A stretch of 64,000 nucleotides of DNA from Mucilaginibacter sp. PPCGB 2223 (GTDB taxonomy: Bacteria; Bacteroidota; Bacteroidia; Sphingobacteriales; Sphingobacteriaceae). The notes under the pieces are model-generated. The model did not search any database. It had not been told where the DNA came from and saw only the letters and a list, made by a program, of their open reading frames with translations. Each line of letters starts with the position of its first letter. Position 1 is the first letter of the stretch. This document shows, piece after piece, positions 1 through 62,653 of this stretch. The DNA lies in contig NZ_MDJS01000003.1 of NCBI RefSeq assembly GCF_001705515.1, forward strand, positions 186,001 to 250,000. Direction: 5' to 3'. The position numbers and the translations under genes are program-made.

Positions 1-1437
1 TTGTTGTGCCTTTACAATTTCTTTTTGTATCTCGGCAATAGCGGTTTCTTTTTCCACGCCCTGGCGTTGTACCTGTGCCATCCGTTGTGTTTCGTAAGTT
101 TTTTCTTCTTCCTGGGCTATTTTACGGTCGGTTAAGGTCTTCATCAGCGCTTCCGGCGGAACGATATCACCTATCAGCGTGTCCACAGCGTTCACGTTAT
201 ACTCTTCCAACACCACCGAGATATGTTGTTTGGCCGATTCCTGCCTTTCCTTACGGGTGATCAGGAAGGAGATCACATCGCTGTCCTGGGCCGAGTTACG
301 GAAGTAGTTGCCGATAGTTGGCTCCAGCACCTGCGATACCAGGTTGAGCATACTACCAAACCTTGCAATTACCTTTGGCGCTTCGTTTGCCGGGATATGA
401 ATGATCTGTGCCACATCCAGGTTAAAAGGGAAACCATCTTTAGACCGCACCGTAATGGTACACAAGTTTTTATCCAAATTGTGCGACTCGCTCCGGGCAT
501 TAGCCCAGTTTAACACCAGGTTAGTGGTTGGCACCAGTTCTACCTTCATGGTAAAGGTATTGATAGGGTACCTGCCAGGGCCAAGCGGTTCCATCCACAC
601 GCCACGGAAGCCTTTGCCAACAATGTTACCATGTTTAAAGTGCTCACCGGTCAAATCTTTACCATCCTCACCAATGTAGGATATTACCACGCCTACATAA
701 CCAATAGGTACTTCAGTCATAGGTATCTCCTCAATCTGTACGGCCCATTTGTTAACGTTATACGAGCCTGCCAGGATGATCTGAGGTTGCAGACCGCGGT
801 TACCGCCATTATTTAAAAAGGCGTCGATATCCTGAAAGTTATTATGACCCTCAATGTTTTTACCGGCTATCTGGCCTATAGTGATGGGCAAACCATCAAG
901 CACCGTGATCACACCTACCATGCTCTCTTTGATCGTGGTCATATCGGCAACTGTCACCTCAAACGCATAGGTATTGATGCGGTAGGTACCGGCGGTAATA
1001 ATGGTAGTTTGACGGCCTTTCTGACCGCCATTGGCCAAAAACTGCTCAGCATCCTGGAAGTTATCGCACTCCACTTTACGGCCCAGGATGTTGCCGGTTG
1101 GTATTTCGGCGCCGTCCTTGGCCATTACCAAACCTATTTTCCCTACCGGGATAACCGTGAACGGCTCCAGCACAATGGTGTATTGCCACGGGAACAAACG
1201 CCAGTACATACCCGGCGCCAGCGTACGGGCCTGGTAGCCGGCCTCGCCTTTAGTGGCGATAAAGTGGCCGTCGGGCAAGGCTTTGTTCTCGCCGTAGAGC
1301 ACGAATTTTTTGGTCACCAAACCAATGCGGTCCTCCGGAATGATCACCATACCGAAGATGATCCGCAAAATGGTTTTGTACAATACTAAACACAATACGG
1401 GTATTACTACCCACCAATAAGATTCAAAATAGTTCAT
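1..1437 (-). CDS. SPFH/Band 7 (flotillin-like) protein, C-terminus cut by window edge
   Basis: The reading frame is open from ATG at 1437 to the window edge (479 codons), so the C-terminus is missing. The N-terminus has a hydrophobic anchor (WWVVIPVLCLVLYKTI, residues 8-23), then motifs IIPEDRIGLVTKKF and KIGLVMAKDGAEIPTGNILG that recur as tandem Band 7-type segments. The last visible part is rich in Glu, Gln and Ala (EEEKTYETQRMAQVQRQ), the coiled coil that follows the SPFH domain in flotillins and YqiK-like proteins. Family members form oligomeric membrane scaffolds; the exact role here is unknown. It lies downstream of the DUF2911 gene but behind a strong terminator, so it probably has its own promoter in 1438-1590. 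Confidence 0.9.
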   Translation of the reverse strand, partial: MNYFESYWWVVIPVLCLVLYKTILRIIFGMVIIPEDRIGLVTKKFVLYGENKALPDGHFIATKGEAGYQARTLAPGMYWRLFPWQYTIVLEPFTVIPVGKIGLVMAKDGAEIPTGNILGRKVECDNFQDAEQFLANGGQKGRQTTIITAGTYRINTYAFEVTVADMTTIKESMVGVITVLDGLPITIGQIAGKNIEGHNNFQDIDAFLNNGGNRGLQPQIILAGSYNVNKWAVQIEEIPMTEVPIGYVGVVISYIGEDGKDLTGEHFKHGNIVGKGFRGVWMEPLGPGRYPINTFTMKVELVPTTNLVLNWANARSESHNLDKNLCTITVRSKDGFPFNLDVAQIIHIPANEAPKVIARFGSMLNLVSQVLEPTIGNYFRNSAQDSDVISFLITRKERQESAKQHISVVLEEYNVNAVDTLIGDIVPPEALMKTLTDRKIAQEEEKTYETQRMAQVQRQGVEKETAIAEIQKEIVKAQQ

Positions 1438-55695: not shown

Positions 55696-58050
55696 ATGCT
55701 TTACCCCAATAACAGTGTAGATAAACTTGGTTTTACCGAGGTAAAGGAACTCATTAAAACACATTGCCTGAGCATCATGGGCCAGCAAATGGTCGACCGT
55801 ATACAGGTAATGAGCAATTACGACCAGATACGCAAGTTTTTGAGCCAGGCACAGGAGTTTAAAAACATCCTGCAAAACGACTCACCCCTGCCAATACATC
55901 ATTTTTTTGATATTAAAAGCCTGGCCAATAAAGCCCGGCTGGAAGGCGCATTCCTTACCGAGGAAGAGTTTTTTCAGATACAGGCGTCGCTTACCACGGT
56001 ATTTGCCGTGATCAGTTATTTTAACGAACGCGAAGGCCGGTATCCCGATCTCGAAGCTTTATTTGAGCATCTGCCGATAGAACGGACTATCCTGAAACAG
56101 ATTGACAGGGTGATCGATCAGAAAGGAAAGATCAGGCCGAATGCCTCTGCCGAGTTGATGGAGATCACATCGGGCATTGCCCGTGCAGAGCAGGAAGCGC
56201 GCCGCAAGATTGACCAGATATTTAAGAATGCCACCAGCAATGGCTGGACGGCCGATGGCAGCCTGACCGTGCGCGACGGACGCCTGTGCATACCACTGCT
56301 GGCAGAAAACAAGCGCAAGCTGAAAGGTTTTATTCATGATGAATCGGCGTCGGGGCAAACCGTGTATATGGAACCCGATGAGGTGTTCTCGCTCAATAAT
56401 AAAATACGCGACCTGGAGTTTGAGCGCCGCCGCGAGATCGTGAAGATACTCACCGCCCTTACCGACGAGTTGCGCCCGCATACCCCGCTCCTGCTATCTT
56501 ACCACAGCTTATTAACCAAGCTTGATTTTGTGCGTGCCAAGGCTTTGTTTGCGATAGATATTGAGGCGCAAATGCCTGTTTTACATAACGATGCCCGTAT
56601 TAAACTGGTGAATGCCCGCCACCCGCTGCTGTTTTTAAGCTTTAAAAAAGAACACAAAACCGTGGTACCCCTTAATGTACAGATCGATGAGCAGGACCGC
56701 ATCATCGTGGTATCGGGCCCGAACGCCGGCGGTAAATCGGTTTGTATGAAAACCGTTGGTTTGCTGCAAATGATGGTGCAGGCCGGTTTGCTGATACCTG
56801 CGCACGAAACCAGCGAGGCAGGCGTATTTAAACAGCTGTTTGTCGATATCGGCGATGACCAATCGATAGAGAGCGACCTCAGCACCTACAGCGCCCACTT
56901 GAGCAAGATGAAACATTTTGTAGAGCAGGCCAACGGTAAAACGCTTATCCTGATCGACGAGTTTGGTACCGGTACCGACCCGCAGTTTGGCGGCCCGATT
57001 GCCGAGGCCGTCCTCGAATCGCTCAACCATAAAAAGGTAAAGGGCATGGTGACCACGCACTATAGTAACCTAAAGATATTCGCCAGCAATACCGCCGGTT
57101 TACAAAACGCCTCCATGCTGTTCGACAACAAGGAGATGCGCCCGCTCTACATGCTCGAAGTGGGTAAACCAGGCAGCAGCTACGCCTTTGAGATTGCGCA
57201 AAAAATAGGTTTGCCGAAAGAAGTGCTTAGTTTGGCCAAAAACAAGATCGGCGACAGCCAGAAAAAGGTGGATACCCTGCTGATTGACCTGGAACGTGAA
57301 AAGAACGAACTATACCTGGCCAGGGTACAGTTAGAAAAGCAACAACGCCGTGCAAACGAACTGCTGCGCGAGAATGAAAAGCAAAAAGCTTATTACGAAG
57401 AGAACAAACGCACCCTGGTAAGCGAGGCCAAACAGGAAGCTAAAAACATCATCCTGAACGCGAATAAGCTGGTTGAGAATACCATCTCCGAAATTAAAAG
57501 CAGCAATGCCGATAAGGAAAAAACCCGCGAGCTTCGCGAAAAGCTGAACAACGAGGTAAAAAAGAACACCGTTAAGCCCATCGCACCTAAACCCACTGCC
57601 GAAGAGCTTAAGGTTGGCGACTGGGTGAAGCTGAATGACAGCGATACCACGGGCGTGATCATGGAGATCGCGCGCGATAACCTCATCATCGCCATTGGCG
57701 ACCTGCGCACCGTGGCTAAAAAGAACCGGGTGCAAAAGGTATCGAAAAAGGAAGTGCCGAAAGAAGTGCGCCGCTCCTACTCTGGCGATACCGGATCGCT
57801 GGCAAATTTTAGTCCGGAGATTGATGTGCGGGGCAAGCGCGGCGAAGAAGCCTTGTACGAAATTGAAAAATACCTGGATAAAGCCATTATGATGGGCTTT
57901 GGCAATCTCAAGATCATCCACGGCAAGGGCGACGGGATCCTGCGCAAGCTCATCCGCGATTACCTGCGCAAATACAGCGAAGTCGACCGGATGGAAGACG
58001 AGCATGCCGACCGTGGCGGGGATGGGATTACGTATGTGTATTTGAAGTAG
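55696..58050 (+). CDS. mutS2: Endonuclease MutS2
   Basis: 784 aa. There is no mismatch-recognition domain; the lever/clamp helices lead to the ATPase with Walker A GPNAGGKS (341-348), DIGDDQSIESDLSTYSAHL, Walker B TLILIDEFGTGTDP and ATTHYSNLK-type switch (MVTTHYSNLK). A long coiled coil (525-630) precedes a KOW-like segment (LKVGDWVKLNDSDTTGVIME) and the C-terminal Smr nuclease domain (DVRGKRGEEALYEIEKYLDK, IIHGKGDGILR). It acts in recombination control or ribosome collision rescue. Adjacent to DUF4296 without spacing. Confidence 0.97.
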   Translation: MLYPNNSVDKLGFTEVKELIKTHCLSIMGQQMVDRIQVMSNYDQIRKFLSQAQEFKNILQNDSPLPIHHFFDIKSLANKARLEGAFLTEEEFFQIQASLTTVFAVISYFNEREGRYPDLEALFEHLPIERTILKQIDRVIDQKGKIRPNASAELMEITSGIARAEQEARRKIDQIFKNATSNGWTADGSLTVRDGRLCIPLLAENKRKLKGFIHDESASGQTVYMEPDEVFSLNNKIRDLEFERRREIVKILTALTDELRPHTPLLLSYHSLLTKLDFVRAKALFAIDIEAQMPVLHNDARIKLVNARHPLLFLSFKKEHKTVVPLNVQIDEQDRIIVVSGPNAGGKSVCMKTVGLLQMMVQAGLLIPAHETSEAGVFKQLFVDIGDDQSIESDLSTYSAHLSKMKHFVEQANGKTLILIDEFGTGTDPQFGGPIAEAVLESLNHKKVKGMVTTHYSNLKIFASNTAGLQNASMLFDNKEMRPLYMLEVGKPGSSYAFEIAQKIGLPKEVLSLAKNKIGDSQKKVDTLLIDLEREKNELYLARVQLEKQQRRANELLRENEKQKAYYEENKRTLVSEAKQEAKNIILNANKLVENTISEIKSSNADKEKTRELREKLNNEVKKNTVKPIAPKPTAEELKVGDWVKLNDSDTTGVIMEIARDNLIIAIGDLRTVAKKNRVQKVSKKEVPKEVRRSYSGDTGSLANFSPEIDVRGKRGEEALYEIEKYLDKAIMMGFGNLKIIHGKGDGILRKLIRDYLRKYSEVDRMEDEHADRGGDGITYVYLK

Positions 58051-58172
58051 ATGGAAGACGTGCGATGATTTCGGATGTCGTCCCCAATGGCTATCGGTGT
58101 GAAGTTAGGATTTTCGGAGGGAATAACCTTTTGAAAGCAGAGTCTGCGAGAACTTAAAAACTAATAAGGAAA

Positions 58173-58502
58173 ATGCTAAATAAAAACTATTCCAAGTGGC
58201 CGCTGGCTTTTGTTTTCACGTTTGGTATTGTATTAATAATTTTAACAATTTATTCTACTATAATTTCCAGAAATCAAAATCTCGAATATCAATTTAATGG
58301 TAGAGTAGATAGCGTGTATTATACCAGTAAAGGAGAGCCTTATATTTTTGTAAAAAAGGTTAAGTATTACTTATCAGACAGGGATTGGGATTTTAATCAA
58401 AATAGAATCCAAAAAGGAGACTCAGTAATCAAAAAAAAGAATTCTATGATTATAAAACTTTTTAAATCAAACGCTAAAGCAATAATTGAAGGAGGTGAAT
58501 AA
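58173..58502 (+). CDS. Small AT-rich single-pass membrane protein, unknown
   Basis: 109 aa. One membrane segment (WPLAFVFTFGIVLIILTIYS, about 9-28) and a basic extracytoplasmic domain of about 80 residues (NGRVDSVYYTSKGEPYIFVK). The ATG is preceded by AAGGA (58163-58167). Its codons are strongly AT-rich in contrast to mutS2, and it lies just before the RAYT unit, so it may be part of acquired DNA. Not recognised. Confidence 0.7.
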   Translation: MLNKNYSKWPLAFVFTFGIVLIILTIYSTIISRNQNLEYQFNGRVDSVYYTSKGEPYIFVKKVKYYLSDRDWDFNQNRIQKGDSVIKKKNSMIIKLFKSNAKAIIEGGE

Positions 58503-58516
58503 TCCGATGATTTCCT

Positions 58517-58550
58517 GTCCCCGCAGGGTCTCTCGACAGAGGACCCTGCG
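58517..58550 (+). repeat. Left inverted hairpin of the RAYT unit
   Basis: GTCCCCGCAGGGTC then TCTCGACAGAGGACCCTGCG: arms CGCAGGGTC and GACCCTGCG pair within the unit. Confidence 0.85.
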
Positions 58551-58601
58551 CCTGCATACATTCGAGCCACAATGTTTAAAAGATAATCGTTACTTTTAAT
58601 C

Positions 58602-59177
58602 GTGGCTATCAGAACGCAGCATCAGTTAACCGAGCAAACCTGGTTCATTACTTTTACCTGTTATAAATGGTTGCCACTATTCGAAATTACAGACTCCTAT
58701 AGTCTTGTTTATAACTGGCTGGCATTTATCCGCGAAAAGCATAGTATAGAGACCCTCGCTTTTGTGATTATGCCTAACCATGTGCATTTGCTGCTTTATA
58801 TTCCGGATGAAAAACTTAACCTAAATAAGTTAATGGCAAATGCCAAACGTTTTATGGCTTATGGGTTAATTAAAAAGCTGCAAGAAGTGGAAAACAAACA
58901 GTTGCTAACCACGTTGTCAAACGCCTGTTCGGAAAAGGAGAAAGCAAAAGGCCAGTTGCATAAAGTGTTTGAGCCATCGTTTGATGCGAAAGCTATTTAT
59001 AGTGATGAGTTTTGGGAGCAAAAGTTAGCTTACATTCATAATAACCCGGTAACCGGCAAATGGAGTTTGGGTAGTCAATCTACAGATTATCCTCATAGCA
59101 GCGCCGCTTTTTATATCGACGGAGTGGTACATCCTGATGCGGAGATAACTAATTATTATAGTCGATGGGATGAATAA
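58602..59177 (+). CDS. REP-associated tyrosine transposase (RAYT, Y1/IS200-like)
   Basis: 191 aa, start codon GTG. The HUH motif is in FVIMPNHVHLLLYI (His60, His62). The C-terminal motif YIHNNPVTGKW carries Tyr144, a candidate catalytic Tyr, followed by DYPHSSAAFYI, the usual end of the RAYT domain. These are single-strand DNA nucleases that recognise hairpins at REP sequences and are usually single-copy, domesticated-looking genes. The first 24 bp are also part of the direct repeat found after the gene. Confidence 0.92.
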   Translation: MAIRTQHQLTEQTWFITFTCYKWLPLFEITDSYSLVYNWLAFIREKHSIETLAFVIMPNHVHLLLYIPDEKLNLNKLMANAKRFMAYGLIKKLQEVENKQLLTTLSNACSEKEKAKGQLHKVFEPSFDAKAIYSDEFWEQKLAYIHNNPVTGKWSLGSQSTDYPHSSAAFYIDGVVHPDAEITNYYSRWDE

Positions 59178-59195
59178 TATTTAGGGGCCATAGTC

Positions 59196-59229
59196 CGCAG
59201 GGTCCTCTATCGAGAGACCCTGCGGGGAC
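59196..59229 (-). repeat. Right inverted hairpin of the RAYT unit
   Basis: CGCAGGGTCCTCTATCGAGA then GACCCTGCGGGGAC; reverse complement of the left hairpin except one base. It may also serve as the transposase terminator. Confidence 0.85.
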
Positions 59230-59288
59230 ACGAAGCGTGGCTATCAGAACGCAGCGTCAGTCCTCGCAATGACATGCAACTAAAAAAC

Positions 59289-60482
59289 CTACCTCACATT
59301 CCAATCAAACCCCACCGCTACCCCGGCCGATTGCAGATCCACCTGCCCGAAACCGATCCGGGTTATCGGGAGTTTTAGATACGGCTGTACAAGCAACCCA
59401 AGCTTATTGTTGAGGCGGTGCCGGTAGTTAATATCGAGGTCCCATACCCCGAGAATGTGCCGGTTTTGGTTATTGATATCCAAATCGACAGCGCTTTTGG
59501 CCGGGTCGGGGAAGTCGAAACGGTAATCTTCCTTCAGCATCAGGTACGATGATAATCCCGTACCCACCGTGAAACTGCTATTGCCCCTGTTATACACCTG
59601 GTAATTGATATTGAGCGGGATATCGAGCACGTAGCAATCGGCATTAACCGTATTGGGTTTGGCGTTGCTTGTCCACAAGGCCGAACTCCACCCGGGGCTG
59701 TTCGTTCTGTAATTGCGTATACTGGTTTGGTAGGGTTTAATAGCGTACGAAGCGCCGGTACTGATACTTAGCTTCGACGTCAGTTTCAGCGAAAACTGTA
59801 TGGCCAGATCGATGCCCGTACGCTCGTTGCTGAACGAATTAACCCCGTTCAGATCGGGCGCGGCCATAACAGCCAGTGCAAATCTGTCGTCTGCCGAGGC
59901 AGATGCTTTTACCGCATTTTTATGATCAGCAGTACCCCTATTTGCCGGATCGATGCTTGCCGATGCATTGATTAACAGGTTGTTAAGGCCCTCATCAAAA
60001 TGCGGTTTTGTATCTGCAGCCGCAAGGCTAAGTGTTTGTGCCGCATCGGCAGGCCTGCTCCCGCTGTCGGCATAAGCGGTATTGTGTAATGCTTTCGGTA
60101 CCCGGGTATGATGATGAGGGGGTTCGGCAGCGGCATCAGAAGCTATGATCTGATGTGATCCGATCATATTTTGCCCTTGGTTTTTAATGTGCTGGCCTTT
60201 ACGTATAGAAGCAGGTGCATAAGCGATTTTATGCCCGCCATTAACCGGTGCTTTGCCCGGAGAATGCAATACAAAATACAGGCCTAAACATACCAGCAGC
60301 GATGCCGCCATACCGCCAGATATTTGGTATAACCAGATTATCCCGGCTTTTTTACGTGGTTTGTGTAACAGGATACTTTCCATGTTCTCCCATTCCTCTT
60401 CCTCGAAAAGCTGCCCGTTATCCTCGGTGGTTAGTTTGTTTTTGAACAGGAAATCTAATTCGTTATCGCTATGCAGGTTCAT
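59289..60482 (-). CDS. Membrane protein with N-terminal cytoplasmic anti-sigma-like tail and C-terminal beta-barrel
   Basis: 397 aa. An acidic N-terminal tail (NELDFLFKNKLTTEDNGQLF, about 6-40) precedes one hydrophobic helix (SGGMAASLLVCLGLYFVL, about 54-72), a Pro/Ala/His-rich linker (75-200) and an outer-membrane-type beta-barrel (about 205-397) of alternating strands ending GVAVGFDWNVR with a terminal aromatic residue pattern. The gene begins 13 bp after the ECF sigma stop, which suggests it regulates or is regulated by that sigma factor. The fusion of an inner-membrane helix and a barrel is odd topologically. Confidence 0.75.
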   Translation of the reverse strand: MNLHSDNELDFLFKNKLTTEDNGQLFEEEEWENMESILLHKPRKKAGIIWLYQISGGMAASLLVCLGLYFVLHSPGKAPVNGGHKIAYAPASIRKGQHIKNQGQNMIGSHQIIASDAAAEPPHHHTRVPKALHNTAYADSGSRPADAAQTLSLAAADTKPHFDEGLNNLLINASASIDPANRGTADHKNAVKASASADDRFALAVMAAPDLNGVNSFSNERTGIDLAIQFSLKLTSKLSISTGASYAIKPYQTSIRNYRTNSPGWSSALWTSNAKPNTVNADCYVLDIPLNINYQVYNRGNSSFTVGTGLSSYLMLKEDYRFDFPDPAKSAVDLDINNQNRHILGVWDLDINYRHRLNNKLGLLVQPYLKLPITRIGFGQVDLQSAGVAVGFDWNVR

Positions 60483-60495
60483 ATATCAGCTAATT

Positions 60496-61107
60496 TTAGA
60501 GGGTAACATTTAGTTTAATTACGTCAATTGCACCTGTGGCATAATAGGTATCGGTGTCGGAGGCGCGGGGAAGTTTTGCTGCAGCAATAACCATTTTTTT
60601 GAGTTTTTCCCTTGCTTTAAACAGGTTTGATTTCGACGTACCATCTGATATGCCTAACAAAACACCAATCTCCTCGTGCGTATAACCTTCAATGGCGTAC
60701 AGGTTGAATACCGTACGGTAAGCCTGGGGCAGCTTTTGAACCATGGCCAGCAGGTCGCCATACTCGAGCTTATGATCGGGCAGATCGTAATTGCCGGCAT
60801 ACTCCATATCGTCGATATTATCGGTATAAGCCGTTTTTAAATTACTGCGGTAGTAATTTATGGCGGTATTGATCATCACGCGCCCCAGCCAGGCCTTAAA
60901 AGGTTTGGTACAGTCGTACTGATCAAGTTTGGTAAAAACCTTGTAAAAGCCCTGGTTCATCACCTCCGATGCCTCGTAGCGGTTAACCGCATACCGCAGG
61001 CATATCCCCATCGCAAAACCATAAAAAGTTTTGTACAGCGCTTTCTGATCTTTCCGATCGTTTTTCAGGCAACCAGCCAGTATTTGTTGTAATTCTGCTT
61101 CTCCCAT
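60496..61107 (-). CDS. ECF RNA polymerase sigma factor
   Basis: 203 aa from ATG 61107 (MGEAELQQILAGCLKNDRKD); the open frame runs to 61293 but the added residues have no sigma features. Region 2: DQKALYKTFYGFAMGICLRY, EASEVMNQGFYKVFTKLDQY, FKAWLGRVMINTAINYYRS. Region 4: LPQAYRTVFNLYAIEGYTHE, EIGVLLGISDGTSKSNLFKAR (helix-turn-helix). This is the sigma-70 ECF type abundant in Bacteroidota. The next gene, 13 bp away, is the membrane/beta-barrel protein. Confidence 0.93.
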   Translation of the reverse strand: MGEAELQQILAGCLKNDRKDQKALYKTFYGFAMGICLRYAVNRYEASEVMNQGFYKVFTKLDQYDCTKPFKAWLGRVMINTAINYYRSNLKTAYTDNIDDMEYAGNYDLPDHKLEYGDLLAMVQKLPQAYRTVFNLYAIEGYTHEEIGVLLGISDGTSKSNLFKAREKLKKMVIAAAKLPRASDTDTYYATGAIDVIKLNVTL

Positions 61108-61582
61108 CGGGGGGTGTATTACTTCGTAATAAGATTGGTTTGACGTGGTCAACACAGCAAAACCCCGGGAATGGTTGCTTAGGTGAAAAAGTTTTTTTGC
61201 TAAGGGATAAGAAATTACAAAAGCCATAATTATTTGAAACCCAAGGCAACCCATAGCATATTGGAGTTGTTGTGCAGTTTGGTGGGATGCCAATAATACT
61301 TTAGCCGGGGCATTGCATTAAAACCACCGCGTATAACTAACCCGAAAACGGGCGGATGGCTTGTGGCCGCCGTCCGTTTTGTTTATGTTAGGATAGACCT
61401 CGTTTGGCTTTTTAGCAGATTTTCCGTATCTTGTAGGTTAAGCGCCAGGCTTATTAGCGATTATTGAGAGCAAAGGATAACGAAAATTTTCTTACAATTC
61501 CCCCCCTGTTGAATGACACTGAAGGACTGATTAATTTCACATTTGCACATTAAAACCTATCTTAGAGCCATAACACCACAAC
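61108..61582. other. Divergent intergenic region between the ECF sigma and SGNH genes
   Basis: 475 bp without a gene I can support. A GC-rich imperfect hairpin is at 61351-61386. TTTCACATTTGCACATTAAA (61537-61556) repeats part of a family F word, and CCTATCTTAG just before the esterase start also occurs before dapA. Confidence 0.6.
61351..61386 (+). other. Terminator-like hairpin without an upstream gene
   Basis: AAAACGGGCGG...CCGTCCGTTTT: about 10 pairs of a 16-nt arm, loop TTGT, with TTTT after it. No plus-strand gene precedes it. Confidence 0.4.
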
Positions 61583-62653
61583 ATGCGTTTTTTAAAGCTC
61601 ACTATATTTTTACTGCTGTTTGCCCTGAGCGCCAGCGCGCAAAAGATCATCGACAGCCAGGACCCGCACATCCGTTACCAGGGGCGCATCGGCCGTAAGG
61701 ACGGGGCGGCACAATTGTACTGGTCGGGCACCTCGATGGAGATCAACTTTACCGGCAGCACCGTTAAGGTTTTACTGAAGGATGAGCGCGGCGAAAACTA
61801 CTTCAACATCATTATCGATGGTAAGATAACCGTTTTGCACCCCGATACGGCCAAACGCCTGTATACCCTGGCATCAAACCTGCCCGCCGGCAACCATACG
61901 CTGCTGCTGTACAAGCGCACCGAGTTTAGCGATGGCTACAGCATATTTTACAACTTCCAGTTAGAAGGCAAGGGCGAGATACTGAACGCTTCGCCGCAGA
62001 AAAATCGGGCCATCGAGTTTTACGGCAACAGCATAACCGCGGGCTATGCCGTTGAGGATTACTCGGGCGCCGACTCGTACCTGAGCCGTTATAAAAACAA
62101 CTACATCAGCTACGGTGCGCTGGTGGCCAGGCATTATGATGCCCGGTACTCGTTCATTGCCAAAAGCGGCATCGGTGTGATGTTCGGCTACTATAACGAA
62201 AATATGGGGCAGATATTCGACCGCCTTAACCCGATGGACCCTGCCAGCAAATGGGATTTTTCCAGGTACACGCCCGAAGTGATCGTGATCAACCTTTTCC
62301 AGAACGATGCTTCGCTGATGCGCCAGCCTACCCGGCCGGAGTTTATCGCCAAGTTCCCGAACGGGCCGCCCGAAGCGCCCTATATCATTAACGCCTATAA
62401 AGATCTGCTGAAAAGCATCCGCGCCAAAAACCCATCGGCACAAATTATCTGCGCCTTAGGCAGTATGGATGCCACAAAAGAAGGTTCGCCGTGGCCGGGA
62501 TATATCCAAAGCGCGGTTGACCAGTTGGGCGATAAAAAGGTTTTTGTGCACTTATTTGCATATAAAAACTCGCCGGGCCACCCAACCATTAAAGAGCACC
62601 AGGCCATGGCCGATGACCTGATCAGGTTTATGGATACCAATATTAAGTGGTGA
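61583..62653 (+). CDS. Secreted SGNH/GDSL esterase, CE2-like two-domain
   Basis: 356 aa. Signal peptide RFLKLTIFLLLFALSASAQ, an N-terminal beta-sandwich (25-140; YQGRIGRKDGAAQLYWSGTS), then an SGNH domain: block I EFYGNSITAGYA with Ser150, block III INLFQNDAS (Asn) and block V SPGHPTIKEH with His333. Domain order and motifs match carbohydrate esterase family 2 acetyl-xylan esterases. It likely removes acetyl groups from plant polysaccharides outside the cytoplasm. No polysaccharide-utilisation partners are adjacent. Confidence 0.92.
   Translation: MRFLKLTIFLLLFALSASAQKIIDSQDPHIRYQGRIGRKDGAAQLYWSGTSMEINFTGSTVKVLLKDERGENYFNIIIDGKITVLHPDTAKRLYTLASNLPAGNHTLLLYKRTEFSDGYSIFYNFQLEGKGEILNASPQKNRAIEFYGNSITAGYAVEDYSGADSYLSRYKNNYISYGALVARHYDARYSFIAKSGIGVMFGYYNENMGQIFDRLNPMDPASKWDFSRYTPEVIVINLFQNDASLMRQPTRPEFIAKFPNGPPEAPYIINAYKDLLKSIRAKNPSAQIICALGSMDATKEGSPWPGYIQSAVDQLGDKKVFVHLFAYKNSPGHPTIKEHQAMADDLIRFMDTNIKW

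Follow-up and report, generated by a model that had tools for sequence, protein, structure and literature searches.

In a 64,000-nucleotide stretch of the genome of Mucilaginibacter sp. PPCGB 2223 (hereafter "the window"), we find an intact RAYT gene between two inverted REP-type hairpins. We think it likely that this is a RAYT unit (REPtron) lying between the hairpins at which its enzyme would cleave, and that a short word found again after the gene is a decayed copy of the gene's own 5' end, joined just outside the right hairpin. The unit is mostly of a known kind, a RAYT with its cognate hairpins, and it is alone in its own genome (5.48 Mb in 8 contigs). The origin of REP doublets from RAYT units is an open question, and this RAYT family shows apparent intermediates, in which the hairpins and the first and last codons are kept and the middle is lost; the gene-start copies left over in relatives suggest how RAYT genes may shed short repeats.

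Features of the RAYT unit (positions counted from the first nucleotide of the window)
Feature	Position	Strand	Details
Left REP-type hairpin	58512..58552	+	inverted-repeat arm 58512-58550; folding, covariation
Parts of the left hairpin	head TGTC 58516-58519; bulged T 58531; loop 58535-58538	+	12-bp stem
Probable promoter element, TACTTTTA	58591..58598	+	in the place of the orthologues' TATATTTA-like box
Word, first copy (parent sequence)	58598..58626	+	4 nt of leader, GTG start, first codons
RAYT gene	58602..59177	+	191 aa; NHVH and YIHNNP intact; Pfam and NCBIfam matches
Right REP-type hairpin, inverted	59194..59234	-	arm 59196-59234; head TGTC 59230-59227, minus strand
Word, second copy, non-coding	59233..59261	+	homology from 3 nt outside the GT of the right head

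No start codon of the RAYT frame precedes the GTG, which lines up with the ATG that the orthologues use. The protein matches Y1_Tnp of Pfam (PF01797) with 26.3 bits, the cut-off being 23, and REP_Tyr_transpos of NCBIfam (NF047646) with 85.6 bits, above the cut-off of 80. It has both the HUH motif and the catalytic tyrosine of the Y1_Tnp domain by which RAYTs are recognised in the excerpted text of PMC2817692, and N59, H60, H62 and Y144 are among the residues that are invariant in 19 family proteins. The best PDB match to its AlphaFold model (pLDDT 93.2) is 4er8, in which the E. coli RAYT is bound to a REP hairpin. The subclass 2.6 motifs NH[LIV]H, YIH[QN]NP and SS are all present (most other family members have YIHHNP, not YIHNNP); the WQ motif of that subclass is absent from the window protein, with FE at 123-124 instead. 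Full-length orthologues, 56-62% identical, were found in seven of the 36 other genomes of the genus that formed our first sample of relatives, and an eighth genome (G014) holds a 42-codon fragment; G137 and G151 have two copies of the gene each, and the gene of G134 has three in-frame stops. The window's own genome also contains four further Y1-type transposase genes (L016-L019), 23-31% identical to the window protein and each beside palindromes that, by eye, are unlike the window hairpin; the frame of L019 has in-frame stops.

The two hairpin arms are inverted and 95% complementary over 39 nt. As the preliminary description had it, the hairpins are reverse complements of each other with one mismatch, and this holds for the 35 nt that begin at TGTC and run to the end of the stem, the mismatch lying in the loop. 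Folded as single-stranded DNA, the headed strands form the hairpin with its bulged T at -13.2 and -15.1 kcal/mol (z -4.4 and -5.6), and for each of them none of 200 shuffles was as good. The same hairpin is present on both sides of all seven full-length orthologues of the first sample; when the 30 loci of a larger set were scanned for the pattern, 28 had hairpins on both sides, the exceptions being L093, with a right-side hairpin only, and L104, with none. Across the alignment 96.1% of the stem cells are paired, and two-sided changes (covariation) occur in four of the 12 pairs. Beyond these loci, the hairpin model matched nine of 30 further ones tried, in Pedobacter and Pelobium (L166-L169, L171), Cytophagales (L172), Chitinophagaceae (L176, L177) and Mucilaginibacter (L178), and found no match at the family members L174 and L175 or at 19 more distant loci of these 30. 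Judging from sequence, we regard the hairpins as the likely binding and cleavage sites of the RAYT.

For a closer look at the hairpins themselves we used 59 loci, which gave 120 hairpins; without six duplicate loci there were 105, in 52 of 53 loci (L225 has none), and after subtraction of one overlap 104 were analysed. Their heads are CGTC in 54, TGTC in 34, AGTC in five and others in 11, so that 88 of the 104 carry the CGTC/TGTC head, a conservation that is partly selected since the hairpin model R1 includes the head, whereas that of the T-rich positions just outside is not. The window has TGTC; the GT(A/G)G head, which is among the RAYT criteria in the excerpts of PMC2817692, is absent. Of 46 pairs of neighbouring hairpins at most 150 nt apart, in the same 104 hairpins and 52 loci, 34 are inverted with heads outward and 7-89 nt between them, which is the orientation also found around the RAYT gene, and the REPIN arrangement described in the excerpts of PMC3116915 consists of the same inverted doublets.

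PMC6006769, as excerpted, treats the E. coli residues W94, Q95, E100, H101 and R104 in connection with GTAG recognition, calling the role of W94 unclear, and describes subclass 2.6 as not conserved at the recognition residues and as lacking GT[AG]G. In a profile alignment to 4er8 these five residues correspond to F123, E124, A129, K130 and Y133 of the window protein, with the reservation that this stretch aligns weakly when taken alone (15.8 bits, i-Evalue 0.1); S126, F127, D128 and K130 are invariant in 19 family members. By this alignment, the residues discussed for the E. coli enzyme appear to differ in the window protein.

In relatives the hairpin is widespread. It is present in 101 of 149 genomes of the genus, including all of the 33 in which the gene was counted as present (E<=1e-30, some of these genes being broken or partial), with a median of 14, vs a median of 2 in the 116 without the gene, 48 of which have none. 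In a sample of 251 genomes of the family, hairpins occur in 16 of 17 genomes with the gene vs 21 of 234 without. These counts come from strict filters, with up to 45 candidates scored per genus genome and 26 per family-sample genome; several of the genomes are incomplete drafts, and the genomes are related, so that the samples behind the association are not independent. Three genomes, G015 (42 hairpins), G136 (44) and G152, have 38-44 hairpins and no family gene at E<=1e-20: either the REPs have survived loss of the gene, or the gene is missing from the draft assembly.

The window's own genome stands at the other extreme. With two hairpins it has, tied with G134, the lowest count of all gene carriers; both are in the 64-kb window, and beyond these two flanks no copy was found in the whole genome, by DNA similarity or by covariance model at E<=0.01. 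The genome-wide search for hairpin and word that the preliminary description had proposed thus gave no further hairpin and no further exact word, and the abundance of cognate REPs, a selection criterion for RAYTs in the excerpts of PMC2817692, is not a property of this genome. The short versions without the gene, whose existence was to be checked according to that description, are present in relatives, where the sampled hairpin copies are mostly gene-less inverted doublets; in its own genome the unit has no such copy. Among 40 further regions, the RAYT gene is complete in three (L115, L132, L144) and broken in L106; seven of the remaining 36 contain pieces of the leader or 5' end, with leader only in L110 and L111. 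A sequence model of the 5' end gave 46 matches at E<=1e-6 in the 149 genus genomes; for 11 of these matches, spread over nine genomes, the gene itself gave no match there at E<=1e-20.

That a word containing the start codon recurs after the gene is correct: the two copies are direct, 93% identical over 29 nt, the second 635 nt downstream of the first. A 19-mer of the word occurs twice in the window, where shuffling predicts 0.00, and in the whole genome at these two exact sites and at one site with three mismatches; in 59 relatives no site matches the word with one mismatch or none. The idea that the word belongs to a population of repeats, in its own genome or in the 59 relatives, is rejected. 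Most orthologues start with M-(A/S/T)-(I/T)-R-T, a beginning conserved as protein while the DNA of the start region varies. With this conservation of the start at the protein level, and as the downstream piece does not code for protein, the latter is best taken as a copy of the gene and not the reverse; the suggestion that the first codons of the enzyme are themselves a copy of a non-coding repeat is not supported. The downstream word is probably what is left of a copied 5' end of the gene. It is 29 nt long, without a leader or hairpin of its own, and it continues into unrelated sequence, so that its history cannot be read. Directly after it, at 59261-59274, comes TCCTCGCAATGACA, which may resemble the end of another dispersed palindrome; it has a single site in the window.

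Such copies are not peculiar to the window. At E<=1e-6, and with 30 nt of flank included on each side, direct copies of the gene were found in the flanks of ten of 30 RAYT loci (the window, L025, L026, L084, L085, L089, L090, L096, L097 and L100), and none in the other 20. When the test is confined to the coding sequence at the same threshold, copies remain in seven of the 30 RAYT loci, the window, L025 and L026 not being among them, vs 0 of 29 mutS2 loci; among distant Y1 loci the same test gave start copies in one of 23. In L046, a distant Y1 locus, the first 32 nt of the matched coding region are repeated twice upstream (at -229..-198 and -114..-83 relative to the match, 94% identical), which indicates gene-start copies in another subfamily too.

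The points of joining are regular in one respect. In nine right-side copies homology starts 2-6 nt outside the GT of the hairpin head (3 in the window and in L025, 6 and 6 in L026, 4 in L089, 2 and 3 in L090, 3 in L096 and 3 in L097), and in dispersed hairpins the conservation of bases stops a few nt outside the head. The inner boundary of these copies ranges from 4 nt before the start codon (window) to nt 544 of the matched gene. L084 is the mirror case, in which the original left hairpin comes after a copy made up of the left hairpin, the leader and roughly the initial 96 nt; L085, L100 and two copies in L096 follow neither pattern. Internally shortened genes are also found: L089 has a short unit of hairpin, leader, about nine codons, 3' end and hairpin; in L129, a deletion unit, -79..165 of the gene is joined to 531..598 between two hairpins; L025 has an internal-deletion unit without a recognisable left hairpin; and in L256, near mutS2 in genome G024, nine codons are joined to about codon 128. 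The breaks of the window copy, L089, L025 and L256 led us to consider a favoured breakpoint near codon 9, an idea dropped with L129, L108, L113 and L114, which break elsewhere. The L256 remnant (2.7 kb downstream of mutS2) is a doubtful orthologue of the window gene: the neighbourhood is the same, but its DNA is not the closest to that of the window.

We therefore keep, in modified form, the proposal that the word marks how the unit was mobilised: what stands is that copies of gene ends occur beside hairpin ends in some relatives. Most likely the window word results from a process whose traces are seen again at a minority of the loci of this family. As we picture it, the RAYT would bind the strand with the CGTC/TGTC head and cut just outside the head, and a cut hairpin end would then at times be mis-joined to sites inside the gene; this would yield partial copies in tandem and short units with internal deletions, and the window word would be one short trace of them. 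The RAYT activity described in the excerpts of PMC8266576 is the binding and cleavage of REP single strands, and E. coli TnpAREP cleaves at CT 5' or 3' of the REP structure. A more ambitious version is tentative and, to our mind, somewhat short of an even chance: that CGTC/TGTC REPs have their dedicated enzyme in a RAYT clade found in Sphingobacteriaceae and relatives, that the loop which recognises the head has changed in this clade (FEPSFDAK for WQPRFWEH), and that the enzyme sheds one-ended copies of its gene ends, from which gene-less doublets come by internal deletion.

A serious rival to cutting by the RAYT, and one that may well be right even if we would not bet on it, is that the gene-end copies, the window word included, arose by replication slippage or break repair provoked by the hairpins, with the RAYT uninvolved. 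A hairpin by itself can make replication stall, slippage typically leaves direct copies in tandem, and L085, L096 and L100 are irregular. Against this, the nine right-side copies begin near the headed end, about where conservation of the dispersed hairpins stops, and the mutS2 control loci are free of copies; these loci were not chosen for hairpins, however, so that this control does not separate RAYT action from slippage. That the hairpins serve as ordinary terminators of transcription or stabilise mRNA is very unlikely: the right arm does begin 18 nt past the RAYT stop codon, between convergent genes, but no T run follows it, the same hairpin is present in inverted orientation upstream of the gene, and the head is conserved among dispersed copies.

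It is just as doubtful that the hairpins are the ends of an IS200/IS605 insertion sequence that is still active. The Y1 domain, the HUH fold and the subterminal type of the hairpins would agree with this, but where several near-identical copies would be expected there is one in its own genome, and the IS200 model scores 20.4 bits, below its cut-off of 55, whereas the RAYT model exceeds its own. Least credible of all, in our opinion, is a functional repeated start, with the transposase or a regulator binding the word at both places and repressing translation. The word does overlap the start codon and recur downstream; yet it contains no hairpin, the DNA of the start varies across orthologues whose protein is conserved, the 59 relatives lack it, and most of the 30 loci have no comparable second start copy. 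The probable promoter bears on this as well. In most orthologues the start codon is preceded, at a distance of a few nt, by a TATATTTA-like box, which suggests a promoter between the left hairpin and the gene. In Bacteroidetes, promoters carry TAnnTTTG-type -7 boxes, and a box of this type would place the start of the transcript at or near the start codon, leaving the left hairpin outside the transcript, which makes it unlikely that hairpin or word acts in translation.

Turning to the surroundings, the interval between mutS2 and orf356 (58050-61583) looks, from the gene order in relatives, like a site of gene gain, given the short spacing there: in L258-L261 and L263-L265 the orf356 homologue lies within about 0.7 kb after mutS2, and in L256 and L257 other genes are found at this place. 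An ORF of 109 aa (58173-58502) between mutS2 and the unit has no Pfam match and no similarity in nine mutS2-downstream regions of other genomes.

The RAYT unit that we favour can finally be set beside the systems already described. The pairing of a RAYT with a CGTC head did not appear among the listed matches (titles and abstract openings) of our literature search, nor did titles and abstract openings on RAYTs or REPs of Bacteroidetes or Mucilaginibacter describe it, and the figures and supplements of PMC6006769 may include it. The CGTC-tagged REPs of PMC3733652 resemble the window hairpins in their CGTC/TGTC head and in being mostly inverted doublets, and the head rule of families 1-4 (CGTC, TGTC or CCTC) holds for the sampled hairpins. 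The stem rule of these families (8-9 bp, AT at the first and second position) does not: the window family has a 12-bp stem with a bulge and a base mostly of C-G and G-C, without AT. With the head shared but not the stem rules, we do not place our hairpins in these families. Unlike them, the window hairpins flank a tyrosine transposase gene, an association of that enzyme with the CGTC/TGTC head that PMC3733652, as excerpted, reported absent, none of its CGTC repeats having an associated transposase gene. The TIRYT/TIRtron of the same paper is likewise a RAYT-like gene with inverted repeats, and GGGGACAC (59224-59231), which by eye fits GGGGWSAS, may correspond to the motif of its TIRs; the window repeats differ in being self-complementary hairpins with dispersed doublets in relatives, some TIRs in PMC3733652 being self-complementary too.

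With TnpA-Y1 subclass 2.6, which is RAYT group 5 and mostly from Bacteroidetes (PMC6006769, excerpted), the window unit shares the Bacteroidetes host, NHVH, YIHNNP, SS, the absence of GT(A/G)G and the presence of hairpins elsewhere in the genomes of relatives. It departs from that subclass in having FE in place of WQ and in its 12-bp stem, the structures of the subclass being called weaker in the text of PMC6006769. As to the RAYT/REPtron units with GTAG or GTGG REPs (PMC2817692 and PMC8266576, excerpted), our family is unlike them in its CGTC/TGTC head and in its recognition residues, the window genome is without a REP population, and G137 and G151, with their two gene copies, are not canonical either. 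What the unit has in common with them is the HUH-Y1 gene, which is usually single-copy in a genome, the pair of inverted palindromes, imperfect and bulged like the REPs of E. coli, and doublets dispersed in relatives.
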